Of a DNA stretch of 64,000 bases, positions 42,002 through 49,694 are shown in pieces. The notes under the pieces were generated by a model. That model saw only the letters and a program-made list of their open reading frames with translations. It ran no database searches and was not told where the DNA came from. The stretch is from Fructobacillus sp. CRL 2054 (GTDB lineage: Bacteria; Bacillota; Bacilli; Lactobacillales; Lactobacillaceae), in NCBI RefSeq assembly GCF_028764065.1, contig NZ_JACOFN010000003.1:1-64000 (forward strand), given 5' to 3'. How positions within the stretch are numbered: the first letter of the stretch is position 1; the number at the start of each line of letters is the position of its first letter. The translations under genes were made by a program, and so were the position numbers.

Positions 42002-42031
42002 AAAAAGAGACACCCCAATGGGTGTCTTTTT
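42002..42031. terminator. Bidirectional terminator between TauE and asp3 genes
   Basis: AGACACCC-CAAT-GGGTGTCT stem with A- and T-runs on both sides, ending both converging transcripts. Confidence 0.88.
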
Positions 42032-43345
42032 TTATGAGCGATTTTTGGTAAAAAAGTCCTGTAAAAGTTGACTAGACGTTGGCTTTTCTTTCATTTCTTC
42101 AGCACGCTCTAATTGATGCTTACGGAATCCATGACCTCGTCTAAACAGGGACTTCTTCGTTGTAACAGGCTTTTCGTCTTCTTCAGCTGCCTTTTTCTCT
42201 TGAACAGCACGAATGTTAGCTGATCCCAATTCCTTAGTTGATTGGCCTGCCATCTGCTTTTTATCCTGCTTGGCACGGAGCTTTTCAGCTTTCTCCGCTT
42301 GCACGTGGGCAGCGTGTTCTTCTGCTTTACGTTTCTTCTCGGCTTTTTTATCAAGAGGCCAATCCAAATACGTCAACGAAGCCAGCAGTTCACCCTTTGC
42401 CGCCAAGGCTTGCACTGGCGCATCATTGGCTAGTAAGGATGGTTGAGTCAGAAGGCCATCTTCTGAACGACGTTCTTCTTCAATTTTTGCAGGCAGTGAT
42501 TGAAGGAAAGTTGCCAGTCCAGGTGAACGACGGTTGTAACCAGCAGGGAGTTCCAATTCTTCCTTTGTTGGAATCACAGCAGTTGAACCCTTTACTGCCT
42601 GTCGATATAGTAAGGCGGTCAAAGATGAAATCGGTCCGTAACCAACGAATTCGATATTTTTCGCCTTAACCGCCCGCTTAGACTGGCTAATAAAGTCTAA
42701 GGCCTTCTCATCGTAATAAGATTGGCAGTGCATTAAATCCGTAGCCATAAATAAGACAGCCTGTGGCGATGATTGAATATCCTTAATTGGATAATCCATG
42801 GTCCGGAAAGCAGGTTCTGAAAGAACGACGCGCAGTGTTTTTGAAACAACCTTTTCAGGAACTTCTAAGTAGGCTGATAAGTGGTCCGTCAAGGCATGGT
42901 CACCATCAATCAAAACACCATCCACCGCTGGGGCTAACTGAATTTCATGAAAAACAAAGGAGCCAACACCGGCAGATAAGAGATCTAAACGGTAACTAGC
43001 ATAGTTAGCAGGAACAACAAAAGTATCCTCATCCCCATTTTGATAATGTTGGTCAATCAATTGACCCTTTTCATCATAGAAGCGCCAGGATAAATAGGCA
43101 TGCATTTTATCCGAATTGTCGATAAAACGCTTGACCCTGTATTTTTTTCCAACTTCTAACTGAGGTAATTCACCAATCGCTTTATTTTGAAAATAGTTGT
43201 CCGAATCAGTCCAGGAAGCAATGATTCGTCCTGAAGGCAAAAAGTGGTTTTGATAGTGCACTTCGTCTTCTTTAACAAAGTCAATCACCGCCCCCTGCAA
43301 TTCATGAAGCATGGTCTGGGGCTGCCAGTAAATTTGTGTTTGCAT
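42032..43345 (-). CDS. asp3: Accessory Sec protein Asp3, extended
   Basis: The N-terminal 150 residues match Asp3 (I-Y-W-Q-P start, S-G-R-I-I-A-S-W, W-R-F-Y-D, S-Y-R-L-D-L). Asp3 forms a complex with Asp1 and Asp2 that modifies and delivers the serine-rich adhesin to SecA2. Here the protein is 437 residues; the last 100 are lysine- and glutamate-rich and probably a coiled coil. Starts immediately after the asp2 stop with GGGAGG upstream. End of the locus. Confidence 0.82.
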   Translation of the reverse strand: MQTQIYWQPQTMLHELQGAVIDFVKEDEVHYQNHFLPSGRIIASWTDSDNYFQNKAIGELPQLEVGKKYRVKRFIDNSDKMHAYLSWRFYDEKGQLIDQHYQNGDEDTFVVPANYASYRLDLLSAGVGSFVFHEIQLAPAVDGVLIDGDHALTDHLSAYLEVPEKVVSKTLRVVLSEPAFRTMDYPIKDIQSSPQAVLFMATDLMHCQSYYDEKALDFISQSKRAVKAKNIEFVGYGPISSLTALLYRQAVKGSTAVIPTKEELELPAGYNRRSPGLATFLQSLPAKIEEERRSEDGLLTQPSLLANDAPVQALAAKGELLASLTYLDWPLDKKAEKKRKAEEHAAHVQAEKAEKLRAKQDKKQMAGQSTKELGSANIRAVQEKKAAEEDEKPVTTKKSLFRRGHGFRKHQLERAEEMKEKPTSSQLLQDFFTKNRS

Positions 43346-44884
43346 TTATCTGAGCCCTCCCATTTGCTGTTGCGCTTGCTGGTCAATCGACTTCTGAAGA
43401 AAGTCAATCATAACCGCAATCTTATCTTCATGACGGCCAGGCACCTCCACATGGTGTACCTTAGCTTGCTTTTCTTCTAAGTAATCCAAGAATTGGGGCA
43501 GCGATTCCCCATCGTATTCGTCCTGCTGCATCGTGTAGAGATCGATCTTTGTCTTGGCCCAGTTTAACTGATCAAGCGCTGACCACAATTTTTGATTCAA
43601 TCGACCAGTATCACGCTCATCCAAACGGCCCGTCAATACTTGTCGAATATCAATTGGCCAATCATGGTTAATTCCCTGGTGGGCAAAGTTTCCTTTTGCA
43701 GTGAAAGTACCAAGGTTAATAATGGGCTTGGCAATGGCTAAGTAGCGACCGTTCCTTTTACCCGCGTAGTACATGGCTGGGTAAGAACCCATTGAGTAAC
43801 CAGTAAAAATCGTATTTTCAGTTTCCTGCCCTAACTGTAACTCTGCTTCGGCAATACGAGCCATCACTAATTGCTCAAATTCTTCACTACCAACCATAAA
43901 GGCGCCACCCTGGGCTCTTGTATCCGTAAAGAGCAAATATGGGTAGCCCAGTTCATTTAAGGGTCCCATCATTTCAAAGCCTTCAACGTGCAGGCGGGTA
44001 CCTGCAAAGGCAACGACAAGGGGGCCCTTTCGGCATCCTGGATTGAAGTAAGAATGAATTTCCTGCCCATCTGCGGTCAGCAGTCGTTCACCGCCTGGAA
44101 TAAAATAGCCCACACCGTGACGGGATTTACGCTGGTGTAAATTACGCAACGTTAAACTACCATTCCCCTTCGCCAGCACCATAATTTGATAATTTTGATA
44201 ATCTTTTGGTGCACGAACCATTGGTAAATTCTTCGCATCCGGGTTTTGGAAGAGCTTCAGTTGCTGGAGTCCACCATTTTGAAAGAACACAAAGGACAGG
44301 GCCAACTCAACATTACCAGTCGTTGAATAGTCTGCGTAAAGCAGGTTCTCCTGACTAGGTTGAAAGTCGCCTGGGAATGTCTTCAAAGTCCCTATCTGCT
44401 GGAAGTTTTCTCCAAAGTCCCCCGTGACCGTTGTTTCAAAACGCCCTGCGCGACGCCAGTGCCAAGCATAGTTATTTTCCGGTAGGAATTGATTTTCTGA
44501 AAAACGGGTCGCAAAACCAGCTTGCCCTAGGTAGAAATCTCTTAGAATCTTTTCAGCGACTGATTCGGCCGTCTGTTCAATCAAGGAAAAAGCCCGACGC
44601 TTAATTAAGGCCGCTTGGACAGCTGGTGCGAAGTCTTGTAACTCCCCTAGATAAAGGACACGATAAGCAGGCCACTCTTGAATTTGCCGCGCTAAAACAC
44701 CCGAATCCAAGATGGAATCCGTTAATAGAACATAGTTAAAAGTGAGGTCACTTGGGCTTTTTTGCCGAGCCAGTAAAACCGGGAGATCAATGTTTTGGCA
44801 GTAGGTCCAATCCAGTGGATAGTCAGCCACCTGATTGGTCCAATCAGTCCCCCCGATTTGTAAAATTGACATAGTTTGTGCCAT
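43346..44884 (-). CDS. asp2: Accessory Sec protein Asp2 (acetyltransferase-like)
   Basis: A 512-residue alpha/beta-hydrolase-fold protein. The nucleophile motif is G-Y-S-M-G with Ser364; candidate Asp and His lie near the end (M-Q-Q-D-E and P-G-R-H-E-D). Asp2 O-acetylates N-acetylglucosamine on the adhesin and is needed for export. AAGGAGTAGC precedes the ATG. It is adjacent to asp3 without a gap. Confidence 0.88.
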   Translation of the reverse strand: MAQTMSILQIGGTDWTNQVADYPLDWTYCQNIDLPVLLARQKSPSDLTFNYVLLTDSILDSGVLARQIQEWPAYRVLYLGELQDFAPAVQAALIKRRAFSLIEQTAESVAEKILRDFYLGQAGFATRFSENQFLPENNYAWHWRRAGRFETTVTGDFGENFQQIGTLKTFPGDFQPSQENLLYADYSTTGNVELALSFVFFQNGGLQQLKLFQNPDAKNLPMVRAPKDYQNYQIMVLAKGNGSLTLRNLHQRKSRHGVGYFIPGGERLLTADGQEIHSYFNPGCRKGPLVVAFAGTRLHVEGFEMMGPLNELGYPYLLFTDTRAQGGAFMVGSEEFEQLVMARIAEAELQLGQETENTIFTGYSMGSYPAMYYAGKRNGRYLAIAKPIINLGTFTAKGNFAHQGINHDWPIDIRQVLTGRLDERDTGRLNQKLWSALDQLNWAKTKIDLYTMQQDEYDGESLPQFLDYLEEKQAKVHHVEVPGRHEDKIAVMIDFLQKSIDQQAQQQMGGLR

Positions 44885-44914
44885 AGCTACTCCTTAAAAC
44901 AAAAATAGAATGCT

Positions 44915-46336
44915 TTATTTTTTTAATCGTTCCTGCCACTGCTGGTTTAAGGCGGCAATGGCCAATCCCGCTTGTTGCTGAATCAGTTGTTCTTGCGCCT
45001 GTTGCCAGCCTTCAGCAGTCAATAAGTTCGTTACCTTGTCGGACAACTCCTCGGGTTCAACCGAATCAAATCCATCAAGCAGTGAATAGGCGGTCTTAAC
45101 CGCTGTAAAAGTTGGAAGGCCCAACGCAACGGTCGTCGCTAGCACTTCTAAATCAGGTTGCTTTGACAAATCAACATAGAGTGAACTGGTTGCTAAGTAT
45201 TGCAAACGACTTTTGACTGATTGTTCCCCTAAGAAAACAAAATGCGCCTTGGCTTCCGTTAAGAGCTGTTCGTCTAAATGAAGGTCTACTAATTGTTCAC
45301 TAAGCGCCTGTTCTAATCGAGCCGGAAAAGTCGCTGGGACAGTCGCCCCTTCAAAAATCACGGTCCGATTTTCATCCTGATTAAACAGTTTCACCGCTTG
45401 GTCCATTAAAGTCGCTTGTTTTGAAGAATCTAAATCACCGACTTTAATGTACAAAACCGTTTGGTTTTTCCGCTGAACCAACTCTTTGGGATGAACCGGG
45501 TATGGTGCTATTAGCACACCCGAATCAGCGTCATCCCCGCTAACGGAACTGACCTGACTCTGCAAAATTTGTACGTCAGTCGACACAGACCGCCAACTAT
45601 CCTGCAAATCAGCAGCGTCTTCCTGACCGGCCCACAAAAACAAGCGGTTAAAACTAACTTGCTGAGCAATCCGATAGTTCAATTCTGAATTGGCAACCAA
45701 GGCTTCCCCCTGGTGGTGTGCCTTTAGATAAGCCACCGTTAACTCCTGAACTAAATCAATCATCTGAGAGTAAGAAACTTTACGCCCATCAGGCAAAATA
45801 GCTTGCACTTGCCCAGTTAAACAATCTTGCTCGGCAACAACAGCTCCAGACTGTGAAAGATAGGAGGCCTTCGTTAACTGACCGTCCTTATAGTTCAACA
45901 CTCTAGAAATAAAGCCACGGTCATCAACTGTTAGCTGCTGACTGAGCTTCCCTTTTTTCAGCAAATCAATTCGATCGATTTGATCAGCTTTAGGATAGGT
46001 AAAAAAGACCGTTCCATAAATTGTTGTACCTGAAAGGACAATAATTCGATCAAACATGCGAACAAATTGCGCGTCTTTTGGCCAAGTTAAATCTTCCAAC
46101 TGCAATGGTCGTTTTTCTTTTACACTGACTTTCTGTAAAGCATCAAAGGCCGACCAATAGGGTACATCAACTAAGCCCAACTGCCGGCGCATCGACTGCC
46201 ACTTTGGTAAGTAAGTTGGTAAAACTAAAAAAGGCTCTGTCTGCGATTGAACCTGCTGGATTAATGCGTTTAATTGTTTGTCTTCTTGACCAATCTGAAA
46301 ATTATTTGGCCAACTGGGAATTACAGCAAATGACAC
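44915..46336 (-). CDS. asp1: Accessory Sec protein Asp1
   Basis: A 473-residue protein of the Asp1 family, which adopts a GT-B-like fold without glycosyltransferase activity and joins the Asp complex. The start is a GTG with GAGG seven bases upstream. The N-terminus P-S-W-P-N-N and later S-L-Y-V-D-L-S-K-Q-P-D-L-E match the family. It stands 39 bases after the short GtfB-like gene. Confidence 0.86.
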   Translation of the reverse strand: MSFAVIPSWPNNFQIGQEDKQLNALIQQVQSQTEPFLVLPTYLPKWQSMRRQLGLVDVPYWSAFDALQKVSVKEKRPLQLEDLTWPKDAQFVRMFDRIIVLSGTTIYGTVFFTYPKADQIDRIDLLKKGKLSQQLTVDDRGFISRVLNYKDGQLTKASYLSQSGAVVAEQDCLTGQVQAILPDGRKVSYSQMIDLVQELTVAYLKAHHQGEALVANSELNYRIAQQVSFNRLFLWAGQEDAADLQDSWRSVSTDVQILQSQVSSVSGDDADSGVLIAPYPVHPKELVQRKNQTVLYIKVGDLDSSKQATLMDQAVKLFNQDENRTVIFEGATVPATFPARLEQALSEQLVDLHLDEQLLTEAKAHFVFLGEQSVKSRLQYLATSSLYVDLSKQPDLEVLATTVALGLPTFTAVKTAYSLLDGFDSVEPEELSDKVTNLLTAEGWQQAQEQLIQQQAGLAIAALNQQWQERLKK

Positions 46337-46375
46337 AACGATTCCTCTTTCACTACTATGTACGCCCGCTCGGGC

Positions 46376-47209
46376 TTAAAAATTGACTACTTTCAATTTG
46401 TATAGGGGGAGTCCAAGTCGCTCAGCCTTTTGATAATCTTCAGCTGAAACCCTTACTTCATCAATCGGATAACTTGGATTTTCCAATATCATTTGAACTT
46501 CAGCATCCACGGCTTCGTTTTCATCAAATAGCCCCTGGGGTAAGGCCAGAACGGCCTTTTTCGCAATCGTCCCCAAAGAACCGATTTTGGTTATCTCAAC
46601 TTCACTCTCGCCTTCAATCTTAGCAAAGTAATCTTGCTGAGCTGCTTCGTAGCTTGGATAGCTAATTCCAAAAACACGGGAGAAATTTCGGCGGCCAAGG
46701 AAATAAAAGTCCGATAAAACTGCGATATCATGTCCAAAATAGAAATCAGATTCTAACAGCTCACCACGGTTAAAATACTGCTGCGCAAATAGCTGCCCAT
46801 TCCGTCTGTAGACATCCTTGCGACTCACATGGCCGTCTTGGTCAAGCCAAGCAATCGCCTGTACAAGGTAATGGCTGTTTGAGAATAAAACGACATTTGC
46901 TATTCGCTGCCCGGCTGAGGAGAAGTTCACAGCCCCTTCTTCGTCCAAATTAATCTGCCCCTGATTGGGCACCTTTATATCAAAGAGAAAACGACCGGAA
47001 CCACCAGGCACAGATTCCAAAGACTCCCGGCTAGCCATATCAAAAACCTGACTATCCTTTAATCCTAACGATTCACAAATGGACTTAGCATCCTCATGGG
47101 GATTCAGCAAAAACAAGCAGTCGGCCTGTCCCCTTCGAACCTGTTCAATTTGCCAGGCAACTGAAGGTTCCGCACGCTTATCAAGTGATTCGATCAACTC
47201 AATTTTCAT
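46376..47209 (-). CDS. gtfB: GtfB-like glycosylation chaperone, short
   Basis: A 277-residue protein resembling the DUF1975-containing N-terminal part of GtfB (S-S-A-G-Q-R-I-A-N-V-V-L-F, V-Y-R-R-N-G-Q-L-F-A). GtfB pairs with GtfA to add GlcNAc to the adhesin. Typical GtfB is about 440 residues; the C-terminal domain is missing here with no obvious frameshift, since asp1 follows directly. Its ATG overlaps the gtfA stop. Confidence 0.7.
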   Translation of the reverse strand: MKIELIESLDKRAEPSVAWQIEQVRRGQADCLFLLNPHEDAKSICESLGLKDSQVFDMASRESLESVPGGSGRFLFDIKVPNQGQINLDEEGAVNFSSAGQRIANVVLFSNSHYLVQAIAWLDQDGHVSRKDVYRRNGQLFAQQYFNRGELLESDFYFGHDIAVLSDFYFLGRRNFSRVFGISYPSYEAAQQDYFAKIEGESEVEITKIGSLGTIAKKAVLALPQGLFDENEAVDAEVQMILENPSYPIDEVRVSAEDYQKAERLGLPLYKLKVVNF

Positions 47210-48668
47210 GAAGGTCCTCCAATAACTTTTGCCAAGCCTTTGTTACAGCTTCTTTCAAATAACCTTGGGCTGTCAAACCAGCACCCTGGCTGAGCTCTTC
47301 TAACTGGCCCTCGGCCTTAATGATCGCTGAAACCAAAGCGTCCACGTTTTCAGGGATTTGATTATCATCAATTGAAAAAGGCGCCAGATAGCCATTATAA
47401 CCGTCTGAAACCAATTCCTGGGCACCATATTCATTGGCATAGGAAATGATTGGCAATCGCTGGCTCAACGCTTCCAAATAGGTTAAACCAAAACCCTCCG
47501 AATAGGAAGCCGAAACATATAGGTCAAACTCCCCTAAATCACTTGAGAGGTTCTGTGAAAGTCCTGCGAGGTGGACGTACTTCTGCAGCCCCTGCTCTTT
47601 TATGAGTTGCTCCAAAGCCTTCTGTTCCTGGCCTGAACCATAAATCGTCAAATCTGCTAGAACCCCTGCCCGCCTCAGCGCAGCAACGGCTAAAATAATT
47701 TGATCAATATGCTTTTCCTGGTGTAAACGAGAAGCAGTAACCAAACGCAATGTTTTTTCAGAATCAGATACCGTTGAGGATTCGGCCCGAACCTGCTTCA
47801 CAAAGCCAACTGGAATAGCATGAACCTTCGCCTTTTCATCATTACCATAGCCGAGCAAATCCAAATCAGATTGCAAGGCAACTTGCTGATGACGGGTCGC
47901 CACCACCACCGCGTCATAGGCGGATAAGTGATTTGCCAAATACTGGTAAAACTGATTAAAAACCAGCCGTTTCCCAATGTTTGCCAAACGGTGGTTGGCA
48001 TGAACAACGGCAATCAATTGATCCTGCTGGTGTTCCTTACGATTAGCCACAAGGTACTCGTCATAGTCTAACCCCCGGTCAAAGAAGTAACGAGATGGGC
48101 CAAAATGCTCTTGTAATGCCTCCATGAAAAAGGTTAAAAGCTGGTAAAAGTTTTGAAAATAATAGTTTTTTCCCTGAAAATTTTCCAGAGAAATTGCCGT
48201 CATCTCCCGTGTTTCATCCACCAGGCGGTAACCCCATGATAAACGGCGCTTTCCAGCAGAAAGCACCACTTGCGCATCAGAAACAATGTAAAGCTGCTTC
48301 TTATCGTTGAAGACTTTTTCTTTCATTCGTCGAATGACGTAACCGGATGTTGCCTGTTCAATGATCACCCGGTTGGTTTTGCTAAAGTCCGACAAAACCG
48401 TTTGGTCATAGGGTTCCTGCTCTGCCTCGGTTAACCCCTCTTCAAGATACCGTTCCGGATCATCTGCCATCAAATAATCGTAAAGATTAATGACGTTCTT
48501 TTCCGCCAAATGCCATTCGCGCATGTGTTCGTGCAGCTTAGGAAGTAAGTCCGAATAAACTAGCTTAACTGGCTGATTTAAATCCTCAAAAGCTTGCTTA
48601 CGGTAGAATTGGGCGTGCTCAACCCCTGAATTTCCATGTCCTAATCCTTTGTTCAAAAAGAAATTCAT
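47199..48668 (-). CDS. gtfA: Glycosyltransferase GtfA (accessory Sec)
   Basis: Starting at the ATG at 48,668 (GGAGGACC upstream) gives 489 residues. A GT4-type, GT-B fold protein with F-F-D-R-G-L-D-Y-D in the N-terminal half and the E-x7-E motif S-E-G-F-G-L-T-Y-L-E-A in the donor domain. GtfA is the catalytic subunit that starts O-GlcNAc addition to serine-rich adhesins. It is 36 bases from pta with no terminator between. Confidence 0.9.
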   Translation of the reverse strand: MNFFLNKGLGHGNSGVEHAQFYRKQAFEDLNQPVKLVYSDLLPKLHEHMREWHLAEKNVINLYDYLMADDPERYLEEGLTEAEQEPYDQTVLSDFSKTNRVIIEQATSGYVIRRMKEKVFNDKKQLYIVSDAQVVLSAGKRRLSWGYRLVDETREMTAISLENFQGKNYYFQNFYQLLTFFMEALQEHFGPSRYFFDRGLDYDEYLVANRKEHQQDQLIAVVHANHRLANIGKRLVFNQFYQYLANHLSAYDAVVVATRHQQVALQSDLDLLGYGNDEKAKVHAIPVGFVKQVRAESSTVSDSEKTLRLVTASRLHQEKHIDQIILAVAALRRAGVLADLTIYGSGQEQKALEQLIKEQGLQKYVHLAGLSQNLSSDLGEFDLYVSASYSEGFGLTYLEALSQRLPIISYANEYGAQELVSDGYNGYLAPFSIDDNQIPENVDALVSAIIKAEGQLEELSQGAGLTAQGYLKEAVTKAWQKLLEDLHEN

Positions 48669-48704
48669 TTGGTCCTCCAAAGTCTTCTACCGTCAACTGA
48701 TCCA

Positions 48705-49694
48705 TTACTTTTGGTTCTGGAATTGGATTGCCGTAATAATAGCAACCTTATAAACATCCTCTTCTGAACAACCACGTGACAAATCAGAAACAGGCTTAGC
48801 CAATCCCTGCAAAATTGGTCCCATTGCTTCAAAACCACCAAGGCGTTGGGCAATCTTGTAACCGATGTTTCCAGCTTCCAAACTTGGGAAAACAAAGATA
48901 TTGGCCTGTCCAGCCACAGTTGAATTGGGGGCTTTCGCTTCCGCTACTGAAGGAACAAAAGCGGCATCAAACTGCAGCTCGCCATCAATCTTATCAGCCA
49001 ATTCAGGCGCCATTTCCTTGGCTAGCTTGGTTGCTTCAACAACCTTGTCAACCATTTCCCCCTTAGCCGATCCCTTCGTTGAAAAGGAAAGCATGGCAAT
49101 CTTTGGGTCTACACCAAAGGCCTTAGCGGTTTGCGCTGATTGAATCGCAACTTGGGCCATCGTTGGCGCATCGAGTTCAATGTTAATGGCACAATCAGCA
49201 AAGACATAGCGCTGATCGCCCTTTTGCAAGAAGAAAGCCCCTGAAATTCGTCGTGAACCAGGTTCAGTCTTAATCAACTGCAAAGCTGGTCGAACCGTGT
49301 CACCAGTTGGATGTACGGCACCAGAAACCATACCGTCGGCTTGGCCCATTTGAACCATCATCGTTCCAAAGTAGTTGACGTCAGTTAGCCACTTTTTGGC
49401 CGTACTTGCATCGGTCTTACCATTTCGGCGTTCAACCAAGGCTTCTACCATAGCGGATTGGTCAGCAGCAGACTGCTTGGCTGGATCAACCACTTGAACT
49501 TTACTTAAATCAAAGCCAGCCGTCTCTGCCGTTTCTTGAATGGCATCTGTATCACCCAATAGAATTGGTTGAACGAGTCCTTCATCTGCTAAGCGCGTGG
49601 CAGCACCTTGGATACGAACATCTTCCCCTTCAGGAAAAACGAGGCGAATCTGCTCGTCTTGAATCTTTTCTTTTAGTTCATCAAATAGTGACAT
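48705..49694 (-). CDS. pta: Phosphate acetyltransferase
   Basis: A 329-residue enzyme that converts acetyl-CoA and phosphate to acetyl-phosphate; in heterofermentative lactic acid bacteria it feeds acetate or ethanol formation. The start ATG has GAGGAGAG upstream; a longer TTG frame is possible. The G-A-V-H-P-T-G-D-T-V motif and the G-x-I-L-Q-G-L-A-K-P-V-S-D-L-S-R-G end are typical. No terminator separates it from gtfA. Confidence 0.94.
   Translation of the reverse strand: MSLFDELKEKIQDEQIRLVFPEGEDVRIQGAATRLADEGLVQPILLGDTDAIQETAETAGFDLSKVQVVDPAKQSAADQSAMVEALVERRNGKTDASTAKKWLTDVNYFGTMMVQMGQADGMVSGAVHPTGDTVRPALQLIKTEPGSRRISGAFFLQKGDQRYVFADCAINIELDAPTMAQVAIQSAQTAKAFGVDPKIAMLSFSTKGSAKGEMVDKVVEATKLAKEMAPELADKIDGELQFDAAFVPSVAEAKAPNSTVAGQANIFVFPSLEAGNIGYKIAQRLGGFEAMGPILQGLAKPVSDLSRGCSEEDVYKVAIITAIQFQNQK

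Follow-up and report, generated by a model that had tools for sequence, protein, structure and literature searches.

A maintained class of accessory Sec block, mostly without SecA2 and SecY2, in Fructobacillus and its relatives

The gtf-asp block and its proteins

Fructobacillus sp. CRL 2054 carries a block of five accessory Sec genes, gtfA, a short gtfB, asp1, asp2 and asp3, which stands without translocase genes of its own. The block lies in a 64,000-nucleotide stretch (positions 1 to 64,000 of contig NZ_JACOFN010000003.1, hereafter the window) at the start of a 142-kb contig, and it belongs to a distinct, lineage-wide and maintained class of accessory Sec block, termed type B here. The clade with this block consists of plant- and food-associated bacteria, most of them without a dedicated export channel, and the block probably works with the ordinary protein exporter, to which the Asp proteins would escort their cargo. 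The genome of the window is a draft assembly of 1.33 Mb in 27 contigs, 91.8% complete, and F. durionis is the closest among the compared named records (Asp2 89% identical). The features of the locus are given below, and G and L numbers in brackets are our handles for genomes and loci.

48705-49694, minus strand: pta, housekeeping phosphotransacetylase, from its ATG (the listed open reading frame, ORF, runs to 49709); NF007233 over cut-off
47199-48668, minus strand: gtfA, GtfA-like GT4 glycosyltransferase, 489 amino acids (aa) from its ATG, 493 aa from the listed TTG
46376-47209, minus strand: short gtfB, 277 aa; by its model one Rossmann domain and a beta-meander, without the second Rossmann domain
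44915-46336, minus strand: asp1; PF16993 over cut-off
43346-44884, minus strand: asp2, predicted carbohydrate O-acetyltransferase; TIGR03712, PF16929
43793-43795, minus strand: Asp2 Ser364, the nucleophile position, corresponding to published Ser362
43520-43522, minus strand: Asp2 Asp455, a conserved acid near published residue 452, the putative catalytic acid by alignment
43430-43432, minus strand: Asp2 His485, corresponding to published His482
42032-43345, minus strand: asp3, 437 aa; TIGR03711, PF15432
42035-42070, minus strand: Asp3 C-terminal tip, ending in LQDFFTKNRS and kept across type-B Asp3
42008-42027, minus strand: strong intrinsic terminator-like site (8-pair stem and a run of T) 3' of asp3, closing the gene run

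The minus-strand order pta, gtfA, gtfB, asp1, asp2, asp3 is tightly packed and operon-like. A gap of 24 or 36 bases, depending on the start codon, separates pta from gtfA, gtfA and gtfB overlap by 11 bases, and asp2 and asp3 abut. The ATG of gtfA stands behind GGAGG, and the listed TTG at 48680 falls inside this ribosome-binding site. No terminator-like site was found in the pta-gtfA gap by a scan that returned 16 sites of this kind against 10.5 in shuffled sequence, and pta and the block are likely co-transcribed. An earlier sequence-only reading of the window had described the five genes as contiguous and ordered, following pta without a terminator; the coordinates, the order, the common minus strand and the scan all agree with that description.

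Profile searches place the Asp proteins in their families. Asp2 matches TIGR03712 with 274 bits (cut-off 211) and PF16929 with 266 bits, Asp3 matches TIGR03711 with 111 bits (cut-off 67) and PF15432 with 89 bits, and Asp1 passes PF16993 (84 bits, cut-off 26) and stays under the cut-off of TIGR03713 (116.7 bits against 136). GtfA reaches 201.8 bits with TIGR02918, below the equivalog cut-off of 575, scores 181 and 152 bits with the SdgA/SdgB models and has a Pfam Glycos_transf_1 match. Its closest solved relative is Gtf1 (5e9t_A, E 1e-47), and its scores with solved proteins are 166 bits for GtfA/Gtf1, 124 for SdgB and 62 for TarM. By sequence, the solved relatives of Asp2 and Asp3 are 6lnw_B (E 4e-49) and 6oyc_C (E 2e-19), from the Asp1-Asp2-Asp3 (6lnw) and Gap1-Gap2-Gap3 (6oyc) complexes, both of which come from species with SecA2/SecY2 systems. 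The short GtfB, 277 aa against 438 profile positions, reaches 27.5 bits with TIGR02919, far below the cut-off of 338, and has no match in Pfam.

The predicted structure of the short GtfB (predicted local distance difference test score, pLDDT, 92; predicted template modelling score, pTM, 0.86) aligns with residues 1-274 of the 447 residues of GtfB 5e9t_B (Z 18.8, root-mean-square deviation, rmsd, 4.4, 255 residues aligned), with residues 1-304 of SdgB 7vfo_B (Z 21.2, rmsd 3.1, 274 aligned) and with GtfA (Z 18.4). Because the last residue of the model falls on residue 274 of 5e9t_B, the second Rossmann domain is absent. The short GtfB is thus predicted to consist of the first Rossmann domain and the beta-meander, the part expected to pair with GtfA, and without the second Rossmann domain it is unlikely to be a complete GT-B enzyme. 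A short GtfB, encoded by an open frame of 279-308 aa, was present in all 27 genomes searched. This search covered three of the 13 Fructobacillus genomes, and the other 10 genus loci have GtfB ORFs of 235-345 aa, depending on the start codon. The description of GtfB as cut to 277 residues therefore does not hold, since the short form is the rule, and a local truncation of gtfB was rejected on the same count. In Leuconostoc the short GtfB is kept together with asp1-3 though the two parts lie apart.

In the window, Asp2 has all three catalytic residues, S364, D455 and H485. Among 39 type-B Asp2 rows the nucleophile serine is present in 34 and the histidine in all 39. Five rows have lost the serine, all of them open genes of 507-516 codons (L097, L101, L116, L117 and L121, changed to Asp, Gly, Ala, Gly and Gly), and these proteins are probably catalytically dead; one of the five is from L. 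fallax, in which gtfA is also broken.

Asp3 is laid out as a beta-sandwich (residues 1-140), an alpha/beta domain (approximately 150-300), a charged linker and a C-terminal tip, and its model is mostly confident over residues 1-300 and mostly poor beyond (pTM 0.47). The second domain also matches Gap3 of S. agalactiae. Asp3 had been singled out as long, and at 437 aa it is, yet the length is not peculiar to the window: type-B Asp3 measures 340-592 aa in 36 unmasked relatives, so the long form is the rule, and canonical Asp3 (142-368 aa in the sampled set) and Gap3 of S. agalactiae can reach such lengths as well. The tip, an LxxFF motif with basic residues, occurs in 35 of 37 usable type-B rows versus 2 of 32 canonical ones, behind a linker of very uneven length, and the mean net charge of the last 15 residues is +3.4 in type-B versus +0.1 in canonical Asp3; the canonical set includes a broken gene entered as two separate halves, together with some short sequences, and the masked type-B Asp3 of F. 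tropaeoli was dropped. A membrane-targeting helix at the Asp3 end, an idea prompted by a likeness to the MinD tail, was rejected, as the hydrophobic moment gave no support and only the motif and the charge did; binding of the tip to the membrane is a guess.

Distribution, arrangement and maintenance of type B

Asp2 is over its cut-off in 113 of 397 sampled Lactobacillaceae genomes, among which a low-scoring class of 233-297 bits defines type B. This class occurs in 37 genomes, namely 13/13 Fructobacillus, 2/2 Convivina, 2/2 of the group g39, 19/19 Leuconostoc (g16) and L. fallax, the sole member of g7. In the Asp2 tree, 39 type-B rows (38 distinct) are split from 32 canonical rows (30 distinct) with support of 100/100, the canonical side comprising 29 of the 30 best-scoring sequences and that of F. 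pseudoficulneus, with middling canonical Asp2 not placed. A type-B profile run over 395 genomes of the order exceeded 800 bits in six, the window's and five Leuconostoc, and gave at most 285 bits elsewhere. One further genome (G174) was kept apart from the 37, as it is from another genus, is 65% complete and encodes a GtfB-like protein of 484 aa; its Asp2 groups with one type-B row at only 89/84, on a long branch.

Neither SecA2 nor SecY2 was found by profile search across the whole assembly of the window; the sequence-only reading had noted their absence from the window itself. The sole full-length SecA is the housekeeping protein: it is over the cut-offs of TIGR00963 and NF009538, adjoins prfB and scores 910 against the SecA2 model (cut-off 930). 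The sole SecY is likewise the housekeeping one, over the cut-off of TIGR00967 and adjoining adk. Because this draft is incomplete, proof of absence rests on the relatives. Type-B Asp2 is present in every one of the 13 genus genomes. In 12 of them, the single-contig G001 among these, SecA is represented by one full-length protein and SecY by one match, and SecA2/SecY2 are lacking; the SecA counts set aside weak partial model matches of 14-18 bits. SecA and SecY were also absent from the stretches around the blocks of 16 relatives in Fructobacillus, Convivina and g39.

The exception among the 13 is F. pseudoficulneus (G010), in which the type-B block is accompanied on another contig by a canonical locus with SecA2, SecY2, a GtfB of 444 aa, Asp1-3 and a serine-rich KxYKxGKxW protein. 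This genome serves as a positive control, its SecA2 passing at 933 bits (cut-off 930); its SecY2 appears as a second SecY match and, at 215, stays under the SecY2 cut-off of 250. The two loci of this genome are L095 and L096 (contigs 11 and 17), and its canonical Asp2 sits on a long branch (2.03) and was perhaps acquired from outside.

Over the whole clade, SecA2/SecY2 are absent from 12/13 Fructobacillus, 2/2 Convivina, 2/2 g39 and 10/19 Leuconostoc. Of the 37 type-B genomes, 26 show only one SecY match and lack an over-cut-off canonical Asp2 (G337 is counted here, with a 27-bit match beside its type-B one), and the remaining 11 have both a second SecY match and a canonical Asp2. Among the 24 type-B genomes outside the genus, SecA2 is over its cut-off in 8 and in pieces in 2, the other 14 having one full-length SecA, and the ten with SecA2 are the same ten that have a second SecY. 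Canonical and type-B sets coexist in F. pseudoficulneus, in 9/19 Leuconostoc (SecA2 in pieces in one) and in L. fallax, whose SecA2 is broken. Two or more SecY matches occur in each of the 75 other sampled genomes whose Asp2 is over the cut-off, so that canonical Asp2 tracks SecY2. In these counts any second SecY match is taken as a putative SecY2, some may be pieces of one SecY, and the SecY2 cut-off itself is passed by only 39 of the 397 genomes, F. pseudoficulneus not among them. The reverse link is looser: two SecY matches without an over-cut-off Asp2 were seen in a small number of genomes (e.g., G033, G074, G090 and G367).

All 17 loci from Fructobacillus, Convivina and g39, with that of the window counted in, share the order pta-gtfA-gtfB-asp1-asp2-asp3. 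The block genes are open in all 13 species of the genus, one Asp3 (F. tropaeoli) running into masked bases. In comparison with F. durionis, the five genes have ratios of nonsynonymous to synonymous substitution rates (Ka/Ks) of 0.02-0.09, and the Asp3 tail has one of 0.035. These values are rough, given that synonymous sites are near saturation and one part of Asp3 was not computable, and by them all five genes are under purifying selection. In all 19 Leuconostoc, asp1-2-3 lie at one site and gtfA-gtfB at another, upstream of a gene of 409 or 420 aa that is phosphoglycerate kinase (pgk) by Pfam in the one tested. The parts of the block are therefore kept even when unlinked. The first gene maps had suggested Leuconostoc without GtfAB, which was rejected once the separate site was found. 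No pta was seen beside either Leuconostoc part; a link in which pta supplies acetyl for Asp2 was considered and is unproven. In L. pseudomesenteroides (G252), all five genes occur a second time, as a contiguous set.

Two Leuconostoc carry an extra GT4 pair of 541 and 490 aa directly upstream of type-B asp1-2-3 (L104:2889-5983, L119:2668-5762); the L104 pair matches the SdgA/SdgB models best, and the gtfA-gtfB pair is also present elsewhere. In L. fallax (G018), three ORFs stand in place of an intact gtfA (L243:3901-5376), and stops divide the canonical SecA2 into pieces; these breaks may be either real decay or draft errors.

The type-B block shares a GtfA-like protein, a GtfB-like protein, Asp1, Asp2 with Ser/Asp/His and Asp3 with the canonical accessory Sec systems of S. 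gordonii (GspB), Limosilactobacillus reuteri and Leuconostoc gelidum, and serine-rich KxYKxGKxW proteins are found in some type-B relatives as well. It differs from them in the lack of SecA2/SecY2, the half-length GtfB, the separate Asp2 branch and the conserved basic tip of Asp3, and the neighbour that the block keeps in Fructobacillus is pta instead of an adhesin gene. The staphylococcal SdgA/SdgB enzymes of SD-repeat adhesins are GtfA-like, and SdgB is the closest solved fold to the short GtfB (Z 21), which lacks the second Rossmann domain; we know of no Asp proteins with them. The general Gtf1/Gtf2 glycosylation system of L. plantarum, which adds O-GlcNAc to Acm2, is likewise a GtfA/GtfB-like pair without SecA2/SecY2 and so a precedent for such glycosylation without SecA2; in the accessible part of its description no Asp1-3 are mentioned and both Gtf proteins have a C-terminal glycosyltransferase domain (PMC5796085), and the Asp proteins are what type B has in addition. 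A limited literature search, with most subscription papers outside its scope, found no description of Asp1-3 kept without SecA2/SecY2.

Candidate substrates

A search for the KxYKxGKxW signal in the 13 genus genomes returned 117 matches at E up to 0.05. Of these, 95 were read, the 22 unread ones being mostly short open frames, and one of the 95, the canonical serine-rich repeat protein of F. pseudoficulneus, was left out. With serine-rich defined as a 100-residue stretch of at least 25% Ser in frames of at least 200 aa, 10 of the 94 matches are serine-rich, 8 of them in five translocase-free genomes. They are distributed over F. sp. EFB-N1 (G003, 1), F. ficulneus (G005, 3), G006 (1), F. pseudoficulneus (2), G011 (1) and F. 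tropaeoli (G012, 2), five of these six genomes being without SecA2/SecY2. The serine-rich stretch lies close behind the signal in nine of the proteins and near the protein end in one, and one F. ficulneus protein has a TGA near its signal. The background frequency is 1 in 260 start-to-stop ORFs (not whole frames) of at least 200 aa, taken from 12 block loci and 12 stretches of the window's genome, whose KxYKxGKxW proteins are included. The ten proteins derive from 18 rows, from which four frames without KxYKxGKxW (L129, L182, L186 and the plus strand of L123), one duplicate (L177) and three references (L140, L123 and L138) were excluded; a looser motif count of 81 frames was not used, as it includes five that are plainly spurious and misses three of the ten.

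Serine-rich genes also adjoin two type-B-like blocks. In L. pseudomesenteroides, a KxYKxGKxW protein of 2557 aa with long serine repeats (25% Ser) is encoded two genes upstream of type-B gtfA, and no SecA or SecY was found in the 30 kb around this contiguous block. In G174, gtfA of the type-B-like block is preceded by a gene end that encodes the last part of a serine-rich LPxTG protein. Together with the serine-rich KxYKxGKxW proteins of translocase-free relatives, these genes suggest that substrates of the usual type are exported by a different route, where the sequence-only reading had considered that a reduced system might modify something else. Between the serine-rich gene and gtfA of L. 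pseudomesenteroides lies a gene for a 215-aa protein (L138:4198-4845) with hydrophobic N-terminal stretches by eye and no match in Pfam or NCBIfam.

The window's genome encodes KxYKxGKxW proteins with mucin-binding domains and LPxTG-like ends, and one KxYKxGKxW gene is cut near a contig end. Its best KxYKxGKxW signal (49 bits; L126:1-351) belongs to a frame that stops after 84 codons near the contig end, and our guess is that this edge sequence belongs to a repeat or insertion element.

A proposed export route and its alternatives

We put at about an even chance the reading that type B is a SecA2/SecY2-free accessory Sec module, in which GtfAB glycosylates KxYKxGKxW preproteins and Asp1-3 acetylate them and escort them to the ordinary SecA-SecYEG. 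In the cytosol, GtfA, held by the half-size GtfB, would attach GlcNAc to preproteins in their Ser/Thr-rich stretches; the likeliest preproteins are surface proteins that bear a KxYKxGKxW signal peptide. The Asp1-Asp2-Asp3 complex would then bind the glycosylated chain, with Asp2 O-acetylating the sugars, keep it unfolded and pass it at the membrane to SecA and SecYEG, perhaps by way of the conserved basic tip of Asp3. The GlcNAc addition to Ser/Thr and the acetylation are putative functions assigned by homology, and above all the hand-over to the housekeeping Sec machinery is what we infer. As SecA and SecYEG are the only such components present, the partner of the Asp proteins must be these or none. 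The retention of Asp2 without its serine in five of 39 rows fits a non-catalytic, escorting role, and in S. gordonii the Asp complex aids export, export persists in catalytic mutants of Asp2, and general Sec let out a glycoform that had been rerouted and carried no acetylation (accessible text of PMC5578698). The wider view, that Asp1-3 are an older or separable glycoprotein escort able to feed SecA-SecYEG, a task that the Leuconostoc-Fructobacillus type B, with its half-size GtfB and tipped Asp3, would perform alone, beside or instead of a canonical system, has in our estimate somewhat less than an even chance.

Several points weigh against such an escort. O-acetylation in S. gordonii was observed solely with export through SecA2/SecY2, none being seen on GspB redirected to general Sec, and the acetylated glycan may, the authors suggest, be incompatible with Sec (PMC5578698, in its accessible text). 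Glycosylation is also said to inhibit or block export by SecA (reviews PMC6973325 and PMC5796085, in their accessible parts). If the incompatibility of S. gordonii held here, the proposed route would be barred. The helical moment of the Asp3 tip is not higher than that of canonical ends (0.46 versus 0.51). Among the KxYKxGKxW proteins read, no serine-rich stretch was found in 7 of the 13 genus genomes, the window's, G001, G002, G004, G007, G008 and G009. No Ser/Thr-rich ORF was found in the block loci, of approximately 17 kb, of the 12 genus relatives, and none was seen around the window's block, in keeping with the earlier remark that no serine-rich adhesin gene is linked to it. The serine-rich protein of L. 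pseudomesenteroides could be served by the canonical locus on another contig of that genome (L139), and the G174 contig ends just past asp3. Finally, the KxYKxGKxW signal is no proof of a link to the block, and the proteins served are only candidates.

The Asp1-3 proteins have been described as parts of a dedicated translocase, and part of the reason suggested for the evolution of SecA2/SecY2 is that ordinary Sec may not let acetylated chains through (PMC5578698, as far as its accessible text goes). A lineage that keeps GtfAB and Asp1-3 without a translocase is a natural test of this idea, in food-associated bacteria where the Asp proteins can be studied apart from SecA2/SecY2, and the half-size GtfB is a minimal partner for working out how GtfB aids GtfA.

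The strongest competitor, distinctly less probable than the escort, is pure modification: glycoproteins made by GtfAB in the cytosol would be acetylated or proof-read by Asp1-3 and no more, and normal Sec would export them unaided; this amounts to L. plantarum Gtf1/Gtf2 with Asp acetylation added. There, a GtfA/GtfB-like pair glycosylates Acm2 and other proteins (PMC5796085, accessible text), and no serine-rich repeat protein with a SecA2/Y2 system was found in the species according to the accessible part of PMC6973325. The Ser/Asp/His set of Asp2 is also kept in 34 of 39 rows. Against this stand the five of 39 type-B Asp2 whose gene has been kept despite the loss of the nucleophile. To our knowledge, neither Asp1 nor Asp3 has a catalytic role, and with the nucleophile losses in Asp2 this leaves the keeping of all three genes unexplained by modification alone.

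It is improbable that the block acts on a different acceptor, wall polysaccharide or teichoic acid rather than proteins. TarM resembles the short GtfB in fold and GtfA distantly in sequence, and serine-rich stretches were not seen in 7/13 genus genomes, the window's among them; set against this, GtfA scores 166 bits with GtfA/Gtf1 and 124 with SdgB versus 62 with TarM, and serine-rich genes adjoin two type-B-like blocks. Slightly less probable again is a dual-role SecA, the single SecA of the clade having adapted to the part of SecA2 and specialised for the Asp proteins. If they serve export, the Asp proteins need a motor, and 26 of the 37 genomes have only one, but this SecA scores as an ordinary one and keeps its place beside prfB.

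Decay of a canonical accessory Sec locus to a remnant would account for the missing SecA2/SecY2 and has a parallel in the canonical SecA2 of L. fallax, in pieces with stops. It is very unlikely in view of the genes open in 13/13 genomes, the low Ka/Ks of all five, the separate deep branch and the coexistence with canonical loci, and the universal conservation in the clade makes it unlikely there as a whole. The sequence-only reading had offered a split locus or a reduced system, and the latter, an accessory Sec block without its own translocase, proves to be lineage-wide and maintained. A complete second locus elsewhere, raised there as a refuting case, does exist in F. pseudoficulneus and in 9/19 Leuconostoc and is lacking in the window's and 11 other genus genomes. 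A split locus or assembly artefact, in which SecA2/SecY2 were present and missed by a draft of 27 contigs and 91.8% completeness, can hardly be credited and is refuted for the genus, as the single-contig G001 and ten other relatives likewise lack them.

Giant KxYKxGKxW proteins of approximately 3,570-4,810 aa were also encountered, as was an open frame of 7,868 codons, and some of these finish in LPxT-like motifs (L169, L170 and L178-L180; G001 contig 1 and G011 contig 20), and related giant proteins are described in Fructobacillus in the accessible part of PMC12863079.

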